A DNA stretch of 64,000 nucleotides from Micromonospora sp. CCTCC AA 2012012 (lineage in GTDB: Bacteria > Actinomycetota > Actinomycetes > Mycobacteriales > Micromonosporaceae). The position numbers were made by a program, and so were the translations under genes. The notes beneath the pieces were generated by a model. The model searched no databases. It was not told the origin of the DNA and saw nothing but the letters and a program-made list of their open reading frames with translations. This document shows positions 31,744-39,463 of this stretch, piece after piece; position 1 is the stretch's first letter; every line of letters starts with the position of its first letter. Location: contig NZ_CP159342.1 in NCBI RefSeq assembly GCF_040499845.1, forward strand, positions 2,170,001-2,234,000. The letters run 5' to 3'.

Positions 31744-32997
31744 TTACCGGCCTCGGTGCGCCCGGTGGACCTCCTGTCGGGCGTACAGCGGCCACCCGGT
31801 CGGGTCGGCCCGCATTTCGGTGAGCAGCTCCGGCCGGCACTCGGCGAGCCGCCGGACCTGTCCGTCGTGCAGCCAGCGCACCAGCCACCCGGCGGTCGCG
31901 GTGGCCGTGCTTCCGTGCCGCCAGCTCACGGTCATCCTGATCCGAACGTCCTCGGCCAGCCGGACGGTGTGCATCGCCCCTGCCGGGATCATGGTGGCGC
32001 TGGTGAGGGCCACCGCCCCGCCGTCCTCCAGGATCCGACGGCCGCTCGGCCCGTTGAGCGCGGTGAACCGGATCCGCGGTTCGAAGCCGGCCGCTCGGCA
32101 CAGCGACACCACGGACTGGTGGTTGCGGGTGCCGGCCGGCCCGGTGAGCCAGTCGAGGTCGGCCAGTTCCCGCAGGCTGATTGTGGCGCGACCGTGACCG
32201 ACGTCGCGGGGCAGCAGCACGTACGCCGGGTCCTCGAACGCCACCGTGCTGTCCCAGCCCGCCGGCACCGCCAGGCTGACCAGGGGAAGGTCGGCGTACA
32301 CACAGATGTCGGCGGCGAGCATCGCGGAAGCCCAGCCGGGGCCGGGGATGTCGACGATGTGCTGCCGGACGTCGACCAGAGCGTCGTCGCGGAGCGCGTC
32401 GACCAGCCCGCTGAAGCCGAACTCGCTGGCCAACTGCAGGGTGCCGGGCGGCGCCGGTTGGTCTCCGCGACCGATGACCGGCGAGACCACCGTGGCCAGG
32501 ACACGCAGGTGCGGGAGCAGTTCGACCAGGAGCGGGGTGGGCCGCACGCCGTCCTGCGTCCGGTCGAACAGGGCGGCCCGCCACCGCCGTTCGATCCGCG
32601 CCACCAGAGCACTCACCGACGGTTGCGGCAAACCCAGTTGGCGGGCCGCACCGCCGATCGACCCGGTCGCGGCGACCACGTCGACCACCTGGGCGTGCCG
32701 GACGGAGACGGAGTCGACGCCGATGAGCCCGGCGATCGTGTCGCACGCGGTGACGGCCCGCCCCACCGCGTGCAGCCCCGCCTGCCCGCGCTCGGACAGC
32801 CGGTAGCCCCGCCCGGTCCGGCACAACCAGCCGGCCTCGTTCACGCCGACCAGCTGGCTCAGTCGCCTGCGCACCTGGGACTCACTGACACCCGACCGGG
32901 CCGCGAGGTCCCCCACGTCGGCACCGTCGGCCACCCCCAGCAACAGCCGAAGATCCCGCGCATCCACGATCTCTGATCGTAGGACATTGCCCAGCAC
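31744..32997 (-). CDS. LysR-type regulator with an extra N-terminal winged helix
   Basis: A 417-residue protein, about 110 residues longer than a normal LysR. Residues about 10-85 form a separate helix-turn-helix with a wing (LLLGVADGADVGDLAARSG, VSESQVRRRLSQLVG, CRTGRGYRLSERG). Residues about 100-165 are a LysR HTH (AATGSIGGAARQLGLPQPS, VSALVARIERRW, LFDRTQDGVRPT). The remaining 250 residues look like the LysR effector domain. It may therefore touch DNA through two different modules. GTG 32997 has no clear ribosome site; GTG 32967 is possible. No divergent partner: its neighbour 78 bp upstream is a secreted protein on the same strand. Confidence 0.8.
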   Translation of the reverse strand: MLGNVLRSEIVDARDLRLLLGVADGADVGDLAARSGVSESQVRRRLSQLVGVNEAGWLCRTGRGYRLSERGQAGLHAVGRAVTACDTIAGLIGVDSVSVRHAQVVDVVAATGSIGGAARQLGLPQPSVSALVARIERRWRAALFDRTQDGVRPTPLLVELLPHLRVLATVVSPVIGRGDQPAPPGTLQLASEFGFSGLVDALRDDALVDVRQHIVDIPGPGWASAMLAADICVYADLPLVSLAVPAGWDSTVAFEDPAYVLLPRDVGHGRATISLRELADLDWLTGPAGTRNHQSVVSLCRAAGFEPRIRFTALNGPSGRRILEDGGAVALTSATMIPAGAMHTVRLAEDVRIRMTVSWRHGSTATATAGWLVRWLHDGQVRRLAECRPELLTEMRADPTGWPLYARQEVHRAHRGR

Positions 32998-33075: not shown

Positions 33076-34323
33076 TCAGCAGGAGCCGGAGAGGTGGGCG
33101 CTGCCGGCACCGGCCGCCCAGGTGCAGCCACCGCGGTACATCAGCATGCTGAACGGAAGACGAAGCGTACGGCGCTCGGCGTTCCAGACCGCCCGGAAGG
33201 ACACCTGCGGGTTGAGGGTGATACCGAGATTCGCCGCCGCCTGGGTGATACCCAGGTTGAGGGTCGTGCCGATCTGTCCGGCCAGTTCCAGACTTGCCGG
33301 CTGCCAGCCCTGCGGGGCCTGGAGTTCGACGTACCGGTTGCAGTGGGCCATGTTCTGGTCCCGGGTGCACTGGGCGGCGCCGACGCTGTTCAGCGTCCAG
33401 CCGTTGATGCCGGCCGCGGTGACGTTGTAGGTGCCGGTGGTCAGGAGCCGACCGTCACTGGCCATGCAGACACCGGTCCAGGTCATGGTGACCCGTACGA
33501 CACCCGTGCGGAGGAGCGCCCGCCAGCCGTCGGCGCGGTAACCCTCGGGGTTCGTCGTGGAGGTGCGGTTACGACTCTGGAGCGTACCGGAGGTGCAGCC
33601 GCCGTCACTCTTGGCGAACGGCCCGGAGCTGGAGACCAGCGTCTCCACCTTCCGGTTGTTGGCCACGGCCGGGTCGGCACTCGAGGAGTACGCCTGCGCG
33701 ACCAGGTTCGTGGCCTTCAAACCCGTCCCGATCGGGGTCTTGACCTGCATGACGACCCGCTGCTGGATGCCGGGTGCCAGGTTACCGACCGTCCACGTCG
33801 TTCCACTGAACGTGCCGGCGGTAGGCGTCGCCGACATCACCGTCAGGCCGTTCAGGGTCAACGGCACCCGGACCTGCTGGGCCGTGGTGGTCGTCGAGAG
33901 GTTCTTGACGTACCCGTTCACGCGGTAGGTGCCTCCGTTGAGGACACCCGGCCCGGCCACGCCGGGACTGACCACGTCGAACATGAAAGCGACGTCGGCG
34001 CTCGACCCGTAGCCCGGCGGGTTCGGGACGGCGCTGTCGATGCACGACACGCTCATCGTGTCCTGCGGTGAGCCGAGCGGCTCGTCCTGGGTGTCCGTGA
34101 GGCACCTCTCCGGCCACAAGTTGAGGTAGTAGTCGGCCCACGCGGCGCACTGGCTGGTAGGGGTGTACCTCGTGGTCTCGGTACCGGCCGCCCCACCGTC
34201 CTGGCACAGGAACGTGGTCGAGGCGGCGCGGGCCGGACCGGCGACGACCAATCCGGAGACGAACGTGAACAGCGCGACGACAGCGGCGCCGATGGCGGTA
34301 CGTCTTCTTGATCGCTGGAGCAT
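33076..34323 (-). CDS. Secreted protein with DUF11-like beta domain
   Basis: A 415-residue exported protein. The signal peptide spans residues 1 to about 33 (basic MLQRSRRRTAIG, hydrophobic AAVVALFTFVSGLVV, AxA at ARAAS). A beta-sandwich of the DUF11/NEW3 type is suggested at about 95-230 (NGYVKNLSTTTTAQQVRVPLTL, TWTVGNLAPGIQQRVVMQV). The C-terminal 180 residues have six Cys, probably in disulfides, and end in a Cys. Specific function unknown; cell-surface or secreted adhesion-like role inferred from the fold only. ATG 34323 with AAAGGG upstream. Confidence 0.78.
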   Translation of the reverse strand: MLQRSRRRTAIGAAVVALFTFVSGLVVAGPARAASTTFLCQDGGAAGTETTRYTPTSQCAAWADYYLNLWPERCLTDTQDEPLGSPQDTMSVSCIDSAVPNPPGYGSSADVAFMFDVVSPGVAGPGVLNGGTYRVNGYVKNLSTTTTAQQVRVPLTLNGLTVMSATPTAGTFSGTTWTVGNLAPGIQQRVVMQVKTPIGTGLKATNLVAQAYSSSADPAVANNRKVETLVSSSGPFAKSDGGCTSGTLQSRNRTSTTNPEGYRADGWRALLRTGVVRVTMTWTGVCMASDGRLLTTGTYNVTAAGINGWTLNSVGAAQCTRDQNMAHCNRYVELQAPQGWQPASLELAGQIGTTLNLGITQAAANLGITLNPQVSFRAVWNAERRTLRLPFSMLMYRGGCTWAAGAGSAHLSGSC

Positions 34324-34947
34324 GGACTGCCCTTTCCGGGAATGGACCTGCAGACGATCGCCGTACACATCGAACGGGATCTGGAGACAGCTGAGATGTC
34401 ACCACACGCCGTGGCGGACGGGTAATACCAGACGTGGCGGGAGGCCATACCAACCTGGCGTGTCTCTATGAGACGTTGGGGCGCGTCATCGCCCCTTGCG
34501 CGACGAGGGTGCAATTGTTGAGCCGGCCGGGGCGTCACGCGAGCGTCGACGCCATGGCTGCCGGACGTTTCGACGTCGGCAATGCGACCGCGGCGGTGTC
34601 GATCGCGCCCTCGCCGCTGATATCGGCATCGGCGCGTCCCTGCCCTCGTAGATCACCATGGATGGCAGCGGGCCCAGGTCGTCGCGGCCAAGGGGCCGCC
34701 GAGATCATCCGCAGCCCCACGGCCCGGCATGAACGTACGATCAAGTCTCGACACGCCGGTGTCAGGGAGGTGCCGGAGGCGCTTTACCGGATGGCGCCCG
34801 AGCCTGGTGCGGTGCGGAAGTGCTCACCTGGATCTGGCCCCACCGGTAAGCGGCGTGTCCAGGCTCTGCCGTCCGGCCGCTTGAGCCGTATGGCGACGGT
34901 GGGAGCCGAATGGTTGGGCATCACCGCCAGGGGTCGGCGGTTCCTTA
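34324..34947. other. Intergenic region, no gene recognised
   Basis: About 620 bp. Promoter of the secreted protein must lie at its left end. A plus-strand frame runs through (e.g. EALYRMAPEPGAV) but its composition is Arg/Pro-rich and unlike a protein. It borders the IS-remnant area and may be decayed sequence. Confidence 0.35.
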
Positions 34948-35910
34948 CTAGTCGGTTGTCGTGCTCACCGCCGCCCCGCCCACACCCTGCCGCCGACTGC
35001 GGACATGTGTCGCATGGTATTCGGGATTGTTGGCAGCCGCCGCCTTCCAGTAACTGCGGATCATCTGGCGGCAGATCGTGGTCGATATTTCCTGCGGAAC
35101 GCTGCCCGGACGGCTGACGAGCAGAATGGTACGCATCACCGGCTCGACAAGTGGACGCTGCACCATCAGGGTGCTCGGACTGTTGATCGGAGAGCCCAGG
35201 GTGACGCACCCCTCCCCCGCGACGAGGACTTCGATGGCGTAGCTGTCGGTGGCTGAGTATGGTGCGTAGGGTTCGAAGCCAGCTGCCCGACATGCCATCA
35301 CCACCAGTTGACGGAGCCGGGTGCCCGGCGGCCGCAACAGCCAAGGGTCGCCGGCCAGGTCACGGAGCGAGACAACGGGGGCCGCGGCGAGCCGATGGGT
35401 GCGGGGTAGGACCACCCAGACCGGCTCCCGCAGCAGGACGGTGCATGCCAACCCGGTGAGATCCAGCGGGGCAGCATCGAAGTCGTACACCTGCGCGCAG
35501 TGCCGGTTGCCGTAGCGAACCTCGAGGACACTGCTCTCGGACAGGTCGATGGTGATGTCGTACTTGAACTCAGGGTGGGTCTCGCGCAGCCGGGTCAGGA
35601 TCCGGGCGAGGGACGGCGCCTCGGCACTGAGCCGCAGCAGAGTTCGATTTGGCCGGCCCATCGACTGCTCCACCTCGGTGACGGCGCTCACCGCCCGAAC
35701 GGCCATCGGGAGCAGGCGGTGGCCGTCGTCGGTGAGCGTGACACGGCGGCCGGTCCGGTCGAACAGCCGGACCCGCAGTTGTCGCTCCAGTCGTTGGATC
35801 TGGCCGGACACCGCAGGTTGGGTCATGCCGAGCCGCTCGGCAGCCCGGCTGAAGCCCCCTGCCTCGACCACCGCCAGGAACACCGCAAGCTGCCGGCTCT
35901 CGACACTCAT
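34948..35910 (-). CDS. LysR family transcriptional regulator
   Basis: A 320-residue LysR protein. HTH at residues 1-60: RQLAVFLAVVEAGGFSRAAERLGMTQPAVSGQIQRLERQLRV, then LFDRTGRRVTLTDDG. The effector domain follows (LARILTRLRETHPEFKYDITIDLSES; VVLPRTHRLA). ATG 35910 has GAGGAG upstream; the frame is open further but runs into the IS3 remnant, which lies 46 bp upstream. The C-terminus carries a basic tail. No linked target is obvious; the original neighbour may have been displaced by the insertion sequences. Confidence 0.88.
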   Translation of the reverse strand: MSVESRQLAVFLAVVEAGGFSRAAERLGMTQPAVSGQIQRLERQLRVRLFDRTGRRVTLTDDGHRLLPMAVRAVSAVTEVEQSMGRPNRTLLRLSAEAPSLARILTRLRETHPEFKYDITIDLSESSVLEVRYGNRHCAQVYDFDAAPLDLTGLACTVLLREPVWVVLPRTHRLAAAPVVSLRDLAGDPWLLRPPGTRLRQLVVMACRAAGFEPYAPYSATDSYAIEVLVAGEGCVTLGSPINSPSTLMVQRPLVEPVMRTILLVSRPGSVPQEISTTICRQMIRSYWKAAAANNPEYHATHVRSRRQGVGGAAVSTTTD

Positions 35911-35956
35911 GGCATGACACTCCTCGGTGAGGTTCACCGGCTTGCAGGAGGGTTGA

Positions 35957-36210
35957 TTATCTGGTGCCGGTGGGTTCAGGCTGAACGATAGTTGGCTCGT
36001 CGTGCTGTGCCCGGTGGGTGTGCCAGGCGGTTTCGTGCTCGTCTGGGGTTCGCCAGCCGAGATCTTTCTGGATGCGGCGGGTGTTCTGACAGCCGTCGAT
36101 GTAGGTGAAGATCGCGTTCTCGGCTTCGTCCCGGGTCCGCCAGGAGTTGCGGTAGACCAGTTCGACCTTCCACGTTGGCCAGAAGTTCTCCATGAACGCG
36201 TTGACGCTCC
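35957..36210 (-). pseudogene. IS3-family transposase (OrfB) C-terminal fragment
   Basis: About 85 codons of the 3' end of an IS3-group transposase: FMENFWPTWKVELVYRNSW, then RTRDEAENAIFTYIDG, NTRRIQKDLGWRTPDEHE and the terminal PTGTR before the stop. This is the tail of the rve integrase core after the DDE glutamate region (normally ESFF-TLKxELV). Everything upstream is missing; the frame is cut at about 36210, where an IS110-type fragment begins. Non-functional. Confidence 0.85.
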
Positions 36211-36566
36211 TGTAGCTCTCAAGTAAGGATCGCGATCGCGCGGAGAGGGCGGAGCAGGGCCCAGATCTCGCGGGCGAGGAGTCGTTTCAGGCAGCGAATG
36301 ATGTCGGCTCTGGTCTTACTTCGGCTGTGCGCCGGGCGACGTAGGCGCGGGTGGGTTCGTGGTGCTGCATGCGGACGACGACGGCACGGGAGAGCGCTGC
36401 GTTGGCTTGGCGATGGCCGCCGCGGTTGAGCCTGTGCCGGTTGGTCATGCCGGGGGATGCGGGGATCGGTGCGACGCCGCTGAGCAGCGCCCAGGCCGGC
36501 TCTGAGCGGGACCCGGTCGATGTTGACACCGGGGACGATGAGAACTTGAACGTCGCGCCTGCCTAG
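36211..36566 (-). pseudogene. IS110-family transposase C-terminal fragment, frameshifted
   Basis: The minus strand encodes the end of an IS110-type transposase (Transposase_20 part): SEPAWALLSGVAPIPASPG, then NRHRLNRGGHRQANAAL, RAYVARRTAE and, in another frame, KTRADIIRCLKRLLAREIW to a stop at 36219-36221. One base is missing between RRTAE and KTRAD (about 36310), and another shift lies near 36505, upstream of which DVQVLIVPGVNIDR continues in a different frame. The rest of the gene is gone. It directly abuts the IS3 fragment. Confidence 0.8.
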
Positions 36567-36707
36567 CCCCGGGGTACCGACACCCGCAGCCCCTCACCCC
36601 TGATGACGTGCTATAGAGATCAACCTTTGTCCAAGGTGAGCAGCAGAACCCATCCGCCTGCCGAACAAGGCCCGAGCCGGCAGACCAGGCGGCGGCCACC
36701 GTGGCAG

Positions 36708-36713
36708 TATAGT
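36708..36713 (+). promoter_or_regulatory. Candidate -10 box of secreted protein A
   Basis: TATAGT in an unusually A-rich stretch (AGTAAAAAATAATG follows), about 115 bases before the ATG at 36829. The same place upstream of the paralogue has TATAAG (37789-37794). No matching -35 element is conserved. Confidence 0.5.
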
Positions 36714-36782
36714 AAAAAATAATGGCGTTACAAGGATATGCTATTTCCCTACCGCCGGGCAGGCGAGTGACAATCGGACTGA

Positions 36783-36807
36783 CCATCAGCGCCGACATGG
36801 ATGATGG
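36783..36807 (+). promoter_or_regulatory. Conserved leader hairpin of secreted protein A
   Basis: CCATCA (36783-36788) pairs with TGATGG (36802-36807), ending about 22 bases before the start codon. The identical stem occurs at 37863-37887 before the paralogue, with the surrounding leader nearly unchanged, so the structure appears maintained. Confidence 0.5.
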
Positions 36808-36828
36808 CGAGCCCGAAAGAGGTAGTAG

Positions 36829-37482
36829 ATGCCATTCCCCGCATCAAGAGTGGTTATCAGCAATCACGCAAAACGTGTTTTCGCAGCCATCCTAGCCGCG
36901 GTTGCCGCGATCGCTGGGGTCATCGCTCCCGTCTCCCCGGCCTCCGCCGAAGTTGGTGCGCCGACCTGCGCCCACTGGGTGTTTCCCACGCACTGCGTCA
37001 CCTACCTGCGTGGCGACAGCCCGGACCTGAGGGTCGGCGACATCACCAGCTGGGCCACCCTCGGCGACAAGGTCGACTACTGGACCTCGGCCGCATCCGT
37101 ACCGCCTGCCATCAACAAAATCTCCGTCGCCGGCAACTCGCAGTCCTGCACCTACAAGTCGACCAGCTCGGGCATCTCCACGGCCAAGCCGATCAAGGTC
37201 ACCCAGATCGACACGTTTTCCTTCAGCACTGTGGGCTTCGGGTTCTCTTTCACTTCGGCAGGCACCGCGACTGTCACGGCGAACGCGACCAAAACCGAGT
37301 TCTCCATCACCACCGTCGCCACGAACGCCGGTTGCACCAGCGCCTCATATGCCCTGACCTTCATCCCGGACGGGATCGGCTACATCTACCGTTTGACGCA
37401 CCGAGTCAGCACCACGTACGACTGGGGCAACGGAAAGACCGTCACGAACGGCACCCTGGACGACACCAGCCTGCGAACCTGA
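36829..37482 (+). CDS. Secreted protein A of a duplicated pair
   Basis: A 217-residue exported protein with no family I can name. The signal peptide covers residues 1 to about 40 (VVISNHAKRVFAAILAAVA, cleavage after SPASA). The mature part is about 177 residues, beta-rich, with four Cys (around 47, 56, 107 and 169), probably two disulfides. The middle (about 123-165) is a long Ser/Thr-rich alternation of polar and aromatic residues (TFSFSTVGFGFSFTSAGTA, then TVTANATKTEFSITTVATN), followed by YIYRLTHRV and YDWGNGKTVTN. ATG 36829 with GAAAGAGG upstream. Nearly identical protein B lies 426 bp downstream with duplicated flanks. Confidence 0.85.
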   Translation: MPFPASRVVISNHAKRVFAAILAAVAAIAGVIAPVSPASAEVGAPTCAHWVFPTHCVTYLRGDSPDLRVGDITSWATLGDKVDYWTSAASVPPAINKISVAGNSQSCTYKSTSSGISTAKPIKVTQIDTFSFSTVGFGFSFTSAGTATVTANATKTEFSITTVATNAGCTSASYALTFIPDGIGYIYRLTHRVSTTYDWGNGKTVTNGTLDDTSLRT

Positions 37483-37517
37483 GCTGGGGCGTAGCCACAC
37501 TCCACAGTCGACCGGAT

Positions 37518-37541
37518 CGGGACGCCCACGCGGGCGTCCCG
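37518..37541 (+). terminator. Terminator hairpin after secreted protein A
   Basis: CGGGACGCCC (37518-37527) and GGGCGTCCCG (37532-37541) pair perfectly over 10 bp with loop ACGC. A very similar hairpin follows protein B at the same distance, so the terminator was part of the duplicated unit. Confidence 0.75.
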
Positions 37542-37788
37542 ACGCCTCTGCGGTTTCGGCGGCGCGCGCCGGTGACGCAATCTCAGCGCACGAACGAATC
37601 GGCACACCAGCGGGATGTCGACCTCGACGGAGCCGCTGTCCGGCGCCGCCAGAAAGATCGAGAACTGCCGGCCCGCCGCTCGCGTCGTCCACACCACCGC
37701 CAGGCCAGCGCCAGAACCAGCCACCGGGCCGACAAGTTCTCATCGAGCCCTGATCAAGATCCCCGACCCGAATGTCGCGGCATCGCGG

Positions 37789-37887
37789 TATAAGAAAAAG
37801 TGATCGCGTCACAAGTAGATGGTATTTCTCTAACTCCGGGAAGCAGGCAACAATTATTCCGACCATCAGCGCCGACAGGGATGATGG
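37789..37887 (+). promoter_or_regulatory. Duplicated promoter and leader of secreted protein B
   Basis: TATAAG (37789-37794) corresponds to TATAGT upstream of protein A; the following 115 bases align with that leader almost throughout, including GACCATCAGCGCCGACA and ATGATGGCGAG. The CCATCA/TGATGG stem is at 37863-37868 and 37882-37887. Confidence 0.55.
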
Positions 37888-37908
37888 CGAGACCGAGAGA
37901 GGTAGCGA

Positions 37909-38577
37909 ATGCCTTTTCCCGCACCAAGAGTGGTCATCAGCAGTCACGCAAAACGTGTTTTCGCAGCCATCCTAGCGGCAGTTGCGGCGATCGCCGGGGT
38001 TGTCGCTCCCGCATCCGCCGCCTCTGCCGAGGTGAGCACTCCCAGCTGCGCCTACTGGGTCATCCCCACTCACTGCACCACCTACCTGCGTGGTAACAGC
38101 CCGGATCTGAAAGTCGGAAACATCACCAGCTGGGCGACCCTCGGCGACAAGGTGGAGTACTGGGCCCAGCCCAGCCCGACGCCACCCTTCATCACCAAAA
38201 TCTTCGTCGCCGGAAACTCGCAGTCCTGCACCTACAAGTCGACCAGTACCGGCGCAATCTCCACAGCCAGGCCGGTGAAGGTCACCCAGACCGACACCTT
38301 CACCTTCAACACTGTGGGCTTCGGATTCTCGTTCAACTCGGCAGGCACCGCGACTGTGACGGCGAACGCGACCAAAACCGAGTTCTCCATCACCACCGTC
38401 GCTACGAATGCCCCGTGCACCAGCCCCTCATATGCCCTGACCTTCATCCCGGACGGGGTCGGCTACATCTACCGTTTGACGCACCGAGTCTTCACCACGT
38501 ACGACTGGGGCGGCGGAAAGACCGTCACGAACAGCACCGTGGACGACACCAGCCTACGGATCACCGGCGGGTACTGA
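37909..38577 (+). CDS. Secreted protein B of a duplicated pair
   Basis: A 222-residue paralogue of protein A, same length and layout: signal peptide to about residue 40 (ASAASA), four Cys at matching positions, the Ser/Thr-rich alternating segment (TFTFNTVGFGFSFNSAGTA) and YIYRLTHRVFTTYDWGGG. By eye about three quarters of residues are identical, most divergence lying just after residue 80 (YWAQPSPTPPFITK against YWTSAASVPPAINK). It has one extra residue in the STSTGA loop and a longer C-terminus (ITGGY). ATG 37909 with GAGAGG upstream. Function unknown; secreted effector or structural role inferred. Confidence 0.85.
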   Translation: MPFPAPRVVISSHAKRVFAAILAAVAAIAGVVAPASAASAEVSTPSCAYWVIPTHCTTYLRGNSPDLKVGNITSWATLGDKVEYWAQPSPTPPFITKIFVAGNSQSCTYKSTSTGAISTARPVKVTQTDTFTFNTVGFGFSFNSAGTATVTANATKTEFSITTVATNAPCTSPSYALTFIPDGVGYIYRLTHRVFTTYDWGGGKTVTNSTVDDTSLRITGGY

Positions 38578-38602
38578 ACGCCAGTAACACTGCGCGGTCG
38601 AC

Positions 38603-38636
38603 CGGGTCGGGATGTCCAGACGGGCGTCCCGACCCG
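38603..38636 (+). terminator. Terminator hairpin after secreted protein B
   Basis: CGGGTCGGGATGTCC (38603-38617) pairs with GGGCGTCCCGACCCG (38622-38636) through a 15-bp stem with two G-U wobbles and a four-base loop. It is homologous to the hairpin after protein A. Confidence 0.75.
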
Positions 38637-38874
38637 GCGAGGGCGCTACTCCTACGCTGTGAGCGGTGATCGCTGAAACGGATCGGGCCCTACCTGCGAG
38701 CGGCACCGGGCATCTTCCGCAGCTGGTCGAACGTCTGCCCACCGGGGAAGGTGTTCTCGCTGGGTCGGGACGGCACCATCCTCGTCGTCCGCGCCACCGA
38801 CGGGCGGCGCTGAACATGCTCGCTCCGGCCGGGCGCCGACACTGCCGGTTCCCGCAGATGAGGTAGCGCCTCGG

Positions 38875-39181: not shown

Positions 39182-39463
39182 ATGATGTTTTGCATGAAGC
39201 CTTCTGGACGATCTCTGGCAGCCTTGGCCGCAATAGCCGCCGGGACGCTCGCCACGCTGCTCGCGCCCGCAACCGCGCAGGCGATCACGTACCACTCGCG
39301 CTGGATCGGGCCCTTCACCGACTACGCGACCTGCCAGACGCAGAGCGCCGATGCAAATAGCCCGTCCACCAACGAATACGCCACCGACTGCTCCTACCAG
39401 GCATCAGGCATTTCCGGCCGCGGGCCAGGTTATTACTACCTCTACACCTACACTCTCGACTGA
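39182..39463 (+). CDS. Small secreted protein
   Basis: A 93-residue exported protein. The signal peptide runs to about residue 34 (SLAALAAIAAGTLATLLAP, ATAQA site). The mature 59 residues begin ITYHSRWIGPFTDYATCQ, contain two Cys that can form one disulfide and end in an aromatic GYYYLYTYTLD. Similar tiny secreted proteins occur in actinomycetes, but the function is unknown. Starts: ATG 39182, 39185 or 39194 (MKPSG); none has a clear ribosome site, and 39194 would give the most usual signal length. Confidence 0.7.
   Translation: MMFCMKPSGRSLAALAAIAAGTLATLLAPATAQAITYHSRWIGPFTDYATCQTQSADANSPSTNEYATDCSYQASGISGRGPGYYYLYTYTLD

Follow-up and report, generated by a model that had tools for sequence, protein, structure and literature searches.

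Organization of the locus

The DNA analyzed here (the window) is a stretch of 64,000 nucleotides from Micromonospora sp. CCTCC AA 2012012, positions 2170001 to 2234000 of a 6.73-Mb single-contig genome. It carries two tandem genes, A and B, for related four-Cys proteins that are probably secreted, together with a gene for a LysR-type regulator (Table 1); the regulator and the secreted genes are referred to below as the cassette. The signal peptides of A and B were judged by eye, with no predictor. A repeat search found A and B to be a true duplication with a spacing of 1,080 to 1,090 nt, and four register-matched blocks were aligned: 36770-37069/37850-38149 (83% identity), 37110-37173/38190-38253 (91%), 37174-37473/38257-38556 (91%), and 37497-37543/38587-38633 (83%). 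Both units include about 120 shared upstream bases and two hairpins, one preceding the ribosome site and one at the terminator, and between the units lies a spacer of about 230 bases that is not part of the shared sequence.

A first-pass annotation had described the duplication of a whole unit with its promoter, leader, and terminator, and the computed alignment of the flanks bears this out, since the TATAGT/TATAAG elements, the CCATCA-N13-TGATGG stem, and the terminator hairpin all match between A and B. The same annotation called the proteins near-identical; the relatedness stands, but at 82% protein identity the degree was overstated. It was correct that the unit is AT-richer than the window, the GC content of the two genes being 0.62 to 0.63 against about 0.70 across most of the window, and that insertion sequence remnants lie beside it, in the form of PF13333 (rve_2) and PF02371 (Transposase_20) fragments. 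The unit had, however, been treated as free-standing, with the LysR gene omitted, and the evidence below ties A and B to that gene.

Table 1. Features of the cassette and its surroundings, in window coordinates
Feature	Position	Strand	Details
LysR-type regulator of cassette	34948..35910	-	320 aa; PF00126 (HTH_1) 4.4e-26; PF03466 (LysR_substrate) 2.3e-22
rve_2 integrase core fragment, transposase remnant between LysR and A	35957..36193	-	PF13333 4.1e-8
IS110-type transposase remnant, Transposase_20 fragment	36287..36529	-	PF02371 5.4e-6
Shared promoter block of A, 43 bp	36708..36750	+	TATA...T.AT..C....CA...ATTTCYCT; T-N11-A box 36710-36722
Leader hairpin of A, CCATCA-N13-TGATGG	36783..36807	+	21 nt before A start codon; fold z -2.40; same stem in B and R77
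Secreted protein A	36829..37482	+	217 aa; 4 Cys; signal peptide by eye; ORF; 82% identical to B
Terminator-like hairpin of A, without T run	37517..37542	+	fold z -3.07
Shared promoter block of B, 43 bp	37789..37831	+	T-N11-A box 37791-37803
Leader hairpin of B, same stem as A	37863..37887	+	fold z -2.34
Secreted protein B	37909..38577	+	222 aa; 4 Cys; signal peptide by eye; ORF; no Pfam family at E up to 1
Terminator-like hairpin of B	38602..38637	+	fold z -4.65; 0/200 shuffles fold as well

Linkage and distribution of the regulator and the secreted gene

Both LysR domains, the N-terminal HTH_1 and the C-terminal substrate-binding domain, scored over the Pfam cut-off. The closest paralogue of this LysR in its own genome (52% identity, 317 bits) lies beside a third secreted-protein gene, copy C, at 708.6 to 709.2 kb, which is 1.5 Mb from A and B and encodes a protein 41% identical to B; the next best of 15 other LysR matches reached only 33% and 90 bits. 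Micromonospora sp. R77 has an A/B-type locus with a cleanly divergent LysR gene, whose product is 93% identical to that of the window, and also a C-type locus. The LysR gene accompanied the secreted gene at all four loci read, two per genome.

In searches that scored the best few candidates per genome (e.g., 6 to 8), the secreted protein (E ≤ 0.001) and the LysR subfamily (E ≤ 1e-60) were found in the same 2 of 160 genomes of the genus, at two loci each. Full-length secreted relatives occurred in these two only among 354 genomes of the family. In six of the eight family genomes with any match, the similarity was confined to a short N-terminal stretch (E 4.7e-6 to 7.2e-4) and was read as signal-peptide likeness, as was one own-genome match at E 0.718. 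The only other LysR matches in the family at E ≤ 1e-30 were two at 32%. The own genome was the only one found with the secreted profile among 394 genomes of the class and with the LysR profile (E ≤ 1e-65) among 368 of the order, both of these being even draws that evidently did not take in R77. In a collection of 5.8 billion proteins, where the best 7999 (secreted) and 7996 (LysR) candidates by shared words were scored, six secreted relatives were obtained, three of them on the contig of the own genome. The LysR relatives at E ≤ 1e-30 were P0007 (96%), P0008 (64%), and P0009 (55%, from a Pseudonocardia metagenome-assembled genome), the contigs of the latter two being short at 2.4 and 1.7 kb. 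Because P0007 and the secreted protein P0003 are both listed with the same 82264-base longest contig, a further metagenomic lineage probably holds the two genes together. Plasmids searched by protein gave no secreted relative, and none of the pattern stretches in viral contigs (11) or in genome contigs (18, with the own genome possibly excluded) was confirmed as one.

A shared block in the control region

A 43-bp block with the consensus TATA-N8-T.AT..C....CA-N10-ATTTCYCT was common to the upstream regions of A, B, C, and the A/B-type and C-type genes of R77. With the sequences anchored at the TATA, which lies 120 to 122 nt ahead of the start codon in all five genes, 17 of 60 columns were identical at one register; the next best of 110 offsets gave 11 columns, and 17 was reached in 1 of 20,000 permutations. 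When both genomes were scanned at ≤3 mismatches, the block occurred at three places in the own genome and two in R77, all before secreted genes; the zero mismatches of these five genes arise by construction because the block was derived from them, so its absence elsewhere is the sole result of the scan. The reversed pattern, used as a control under the same conditions, occurred at no place in either genome.

By inspection, a T-N11-A box was located at the same position of the aligned block in all five target genes. Excerpts of PMC8407307 describe T-N11-A boxes together with divergent regulators as the usual LysR arrangement, and portions of that paper and of PMC7837296 give T-N11-A as the classical LysR box, often at about -65, with an activation site closer to the promoter. 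The cassette resembles the regulons of LysR-type transcriptional regulators in its HTH_1 and LysR_substrate regulator, the divergent target in R77, and the box upstream of the target. It differs from them in that the neighboring target encodes a secreted protein outside any known family, the LysR subfamily turned up at very few sites, and the promoter block is private to the target genes in the two genomes scanned.

Divergence of the secreted protein and its regulator

Over 217 aligned codons, A and B differed by 39 replacement and 33 silent changes, with a nonsynonymous rate (dN) of 0.106, a synonymous rate (dS) of 0.336, and a dN/dS of 0.32. The coding differences had been thought to cluster at about residues 80 to 95 in a diversifying loop. 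The cluster is present but modest: 9 replacements fell within 15 codons, a density reached in 76 of 5,000 permutations, and a 20-codon stretch with 10 replacements was matched in 190 of 5,000. Across codons 81 to 100, dN was 0.409 and dS 0.556, so that dN did not exceed dS and the modestly non-random cluster of replacements coincides with a correspondingly high dS. Diversifying selection on the loop was therefore rejected. Toward the 3' end, a run of 48 codons without a silent difference between A and B (reached in 23 of 5,000 permutations) suggests that this part of the genes underwent gene conversion.

The other within-lineage comparisons of the secreted protein gave dN/dS values of 0.45 (A and R77), 0.43 (B and R77), and 0.50 (the C pair), while the A/B and C lineages compared with each other gave 0.59 to 0.80. 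Among the LysR genes, the A/B-side pair gave 0.11, the C-side pair 0.27 (337 aligned codons), and comparison across the two sides 0.42. None of the secreted-protein or LysR comparisons exceeded 1. With 0.32 to 0.50 against 0.11 and 0.27, the secreted protein evolves faster than its LysR regulator.

The C-side LysR frame of R77 (L006 2106-3138) is open for 552 codons against 337 in its counterpart and runs past the end of the latter, antisense to C.

Genomic sites of the cassette

Around C, synteny is preserved between the own genome and R77, with 91 to 92% DNA identity over about 16.5 kb. The A/B cassette lacks such synteny: when the 64-kb window was compared with 18 kb around the R77 copy, nothing matched except LysR (89% DNA identity), the secreted unit (75%), and a single stretch of about 89 bases. 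Between the genomes, dS was 0.37 for the cassette LysR and 0.53 for the secreted gene, against 0.20 at the C locus. At third codon positions, A, B, and their LysR have a GC content (GC3) of 0.80 to 0.82, against values of 0.94 in C and 0.91 in its LysR; GC3 by itself is weak evidence because values from 0.77 to 0.93 occur in other genes of the window. The A/B cassette has apparently been mobile, moving between genome sites with its own control sequence, and no recombinase gene that could account for its mobility was seen. The first-pass annotation had suggested looking for further copies in related genomes and for mobile elements beside them. Copies were found, as C in the own genome and two loci in R77; the transposase remnants of the window were not matched at the A/B-type locus of R77, the interval there between LysR and the secreted gene being about 430 bases of other sequence with no BLAST match to the transposase remnants of the window.

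At the C locus, the neighboring genes are presumably dedA and acnA. The former was present at E ≤ 1e-50 in 100 of 160 genomes, and among 30 dedA loci examined, acnA lay 206 to 1,247 bases away in 24 and was out of reach in 4; at the own C locus, the distance is about 2,100 bases. Since C was absent from the dedA loci of all but the two carriers, it looks as though the cassette was inserted at this site too, or else was lost widely.

The 89-base stretch (window 34763-34848 against L030 11323-11411, 83%) is inverted, lies outside the cassette, and is found on opposite sides of it in the two genomes.

Sequence and fold of the secreted protein

The Cys residues are at positions 47, 56, 107, and 169 in A and at 47, 56, 107, and 170 in B, and all four are invariant across an alignment of six sequences. 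In agreement with the first-pass annotation, no family could be assigned, and searches of Pfam, NCBIfam, PHROGs, PADLOC, and the Protein Data Bank (PDB) sequences gave sub-cut-off or weak matches only. The candidates rejected in this way were DUF1573 for A (Pfam, E 0.043, under cut-off), OS_HP2 (NCBIfam, E 0.0032, scoring 17.8 bits where the cut-off is 100), weak PHROGs matches (best E 0.0069, to the N-terminal half of P0004, a secreted protein of R77), one weak PADLOC match (E 0.035), and two weak PDB matches (E 0.21 and 1.4). In the open-licence literature of PubMed Central, no paper was recognized as describing the family, and none was found for the R77 locus tag or strain name.

The AlphaFold model of mature B was all-beta with a pLDDT of 72.8. 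Its best Foldseek rows were collagen-binding adhesin domains (MSCRAMM) and cohesin-like modules at E 2.8e-3 to 1e-2, a soft result given TM-scores on the query of only 0.24 to 0.36. Compared with MSCRAMM adhesins, the secreted protein is a single small domain with four Cys and lacks an LPXTG wall anchor, A ending in DDTSLRT and B in RITGGY. The MspA porin family (PF09203) was the top Foldseek row of the C model and is similar in its all-beta predicted fold and comparable mature length. At the sequence level, however, PF09203 was unmatched by A, B, P0003, P0004, and P0005 at E up to 1, and hhalign gave E 0.33 with a probability of 0.2 over 14 columns, against E 0.54 for a reversed control. A PF09203 profile search of the own genome gave one place elsewhere, sub-cut-off and with a stop inside. 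Leukocidin and MspA are grouped as one fold class, and the leukocidin/alpha-hemolysin class held the top VIA rows for both the B and C models, although the secreted protein is about 100 residues shorter and without a sequence match; the leukocidin families were absent from a Pfam scan of the secreted proteins at E up to 1. When an amphipathic stem hairpin was looked for in A, B, and the R77 protein, alternation was no higher than in shuffles.

Leader and terminator hairpins

For the R77 copy, the leader and terminator hairpins folded with z values of -1.80 and -4.03. The terminator hairpins of A and B have no T run and were unlisted by a consensus terminator scan. In the C-type leaders of both genomes, a hairpin of other sequence lies almost equally far from the start (19 nt as against 21, counted by eye), and for this reason the leader hairpin was set aside as a LysR site. 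Regulatory RNA is only a lead, because the leader z values are modest (-1.67 to -2.40). A known riboswitch was also discarded, as an Rfam search of 36500-38800 gave three sub-threshold chance matches in the 5' coding part of B and none on the leaders.

In the C-type leaders (L003 2124-2184 and L006 1402-1462), GACC/GGACC is predicted to pair with GGTC/GGTCC at the ribosome site and could mask it.

Interpretation

Overall, the genes seem, on balance, to form a seldom-encountered two-part module, which pairs a LysR-type regulator with a secreted, beta-rich protein of four Cys whose gene is tandemly doubled in the window and most likely under LysR control. In such a module, the LysR protein would sense a small-molecule cue, bind the 43-bp block at its 5' end, where the T-N11-A box lies, and switch on a weak core promoter at the opposite (3') end. 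With classical LysR spacing, the transcription start would fall near 36780, which would put the leader hairpin right at the 5' terminus of the mRNA, a placement that is suggestive only. The short mRNA would carry this hairpin just ahead of the ribosome site and a GC-rich hairpin at its end. A and B would be exported by the Sec route, cleaved after an AxA site, and furnished with disulfides, and they would act outside the cell, most likely on the surface of a competitor or predator.

Several observations weigh against this module. The block was drawn from the five genes with its TATA anchor chosen by eye, and without the anchor, the upstream regions of the A/B and C lineages showed no significant likeness (the best pair, which aligned in a different register, was reached in 17 of 200 shuffles, and the remaining five pairs in 113 to 200 of 200). 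T-N11-A by itself is a weak motif, LysR sites vary (according to sections of PMC7837296), and a scan of the two genomes did not find the block upstream of the LysR genes themselves. At the own C locus, LysR and C are convergent rather than divergent, and since the two genomes are close relatives there, the co-occurrence at that locus counts as one event. Finally, transposase debris separates LysR from A in the window, and because likeness to the R77 LysR upstream region stops near 35930, this LysR may be mis-expressed or may have lost its own promoter.

The simplest alternative is that A and B are ordinary constitutive genes with TATAGT/TATAAG as the -10 element of a 115-base leader, as the first-pass annotation had it, and that the LysR neighbor is incidental. 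The element is indeed -10-like, and its constant distance from all five starts would fit. However, a sigma-70 scan of 36600-38700 gave no promoter on the + strand, the sole match being on the - strand at 36733-36706, and conservation does not end at the TATA, which is the 5' end of a longer block with LysR-box spacing, but runs on for about 35 bp to ATTTCYCT. Together with a LysR gene at every locus read and probably on the metagenome contig too, this makes the constitutive explanation improbable; the TATA-opening block is more likely a LysR target than a plain -10.

The other two alternatives concern what the secreted protein does. It is quite possible that the protein binds without lysing, as an adhesin of the beta-sandwich type, an inhibitor, or a carbohydrate binder would, and that LysR governs its release on contact with a substrate or surface. 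The adhesin and cohesin-like Foldseek rows for B favor this, as do the signal peptide, the conserved Cys, and the lack of any catalytic motif seen by eye, but those rows are equally soft, the C-terminus has no LPXTG-type anchor, and no Pfam binding module came over the cut-off (PKD_6 in P0004 only at E 0.13). That it is instead a small pore former or porin-like protein with a fold of the leukocidin/MspA class, assembling into a ring that inserts a beta hairpin into a target membrane, appears doubtful; tandem pairs are known among leukocidin-class pore formers, and A and B might then be partner subunits. Such a pore would be the molecular action of the LysR module and is compatible with it. Its fullest form, a mobile cassette that carries LysR and a private promoter along with a hitherto undescribed family of small, disulfide-stapled, secreted MspA/leukocidin-like pore proteins in an organism with no mycomembrane, A and B being diverging partner subunits, is rather unlikely. 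Micromonospora is not expected to have a mycomembrane, in contrast to the setting of MspA. If the fold lead were true, the MspA/leukocidin class would be widened to a non-mycolate actinomycete.

Only six sequences of the secreted protein were found, and its family has no name, yet its probable regulator and promoter are delimited closely enough for direct testing. A regulator-effector pair relocating with its own box would be a neat case of orphan secreted proteins acquired with their control intact.

Neighboring genes

A second LysR-type gene of the window (31747-32997), with an extra N-terminal HTH likeness, adjoins a probably secreted DUF11 protein (33079-34368), a similar pairing. In R77, the A/B cassette is adjoined by another LysR-type gene with two HTH_1 stretches (L030 7284-8618). 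Downstream of the duplicated unit, the window encodes a probably secreted protein of 93 aa (39182-39463) without a Pfam family, with a low GC3 of 0.77.
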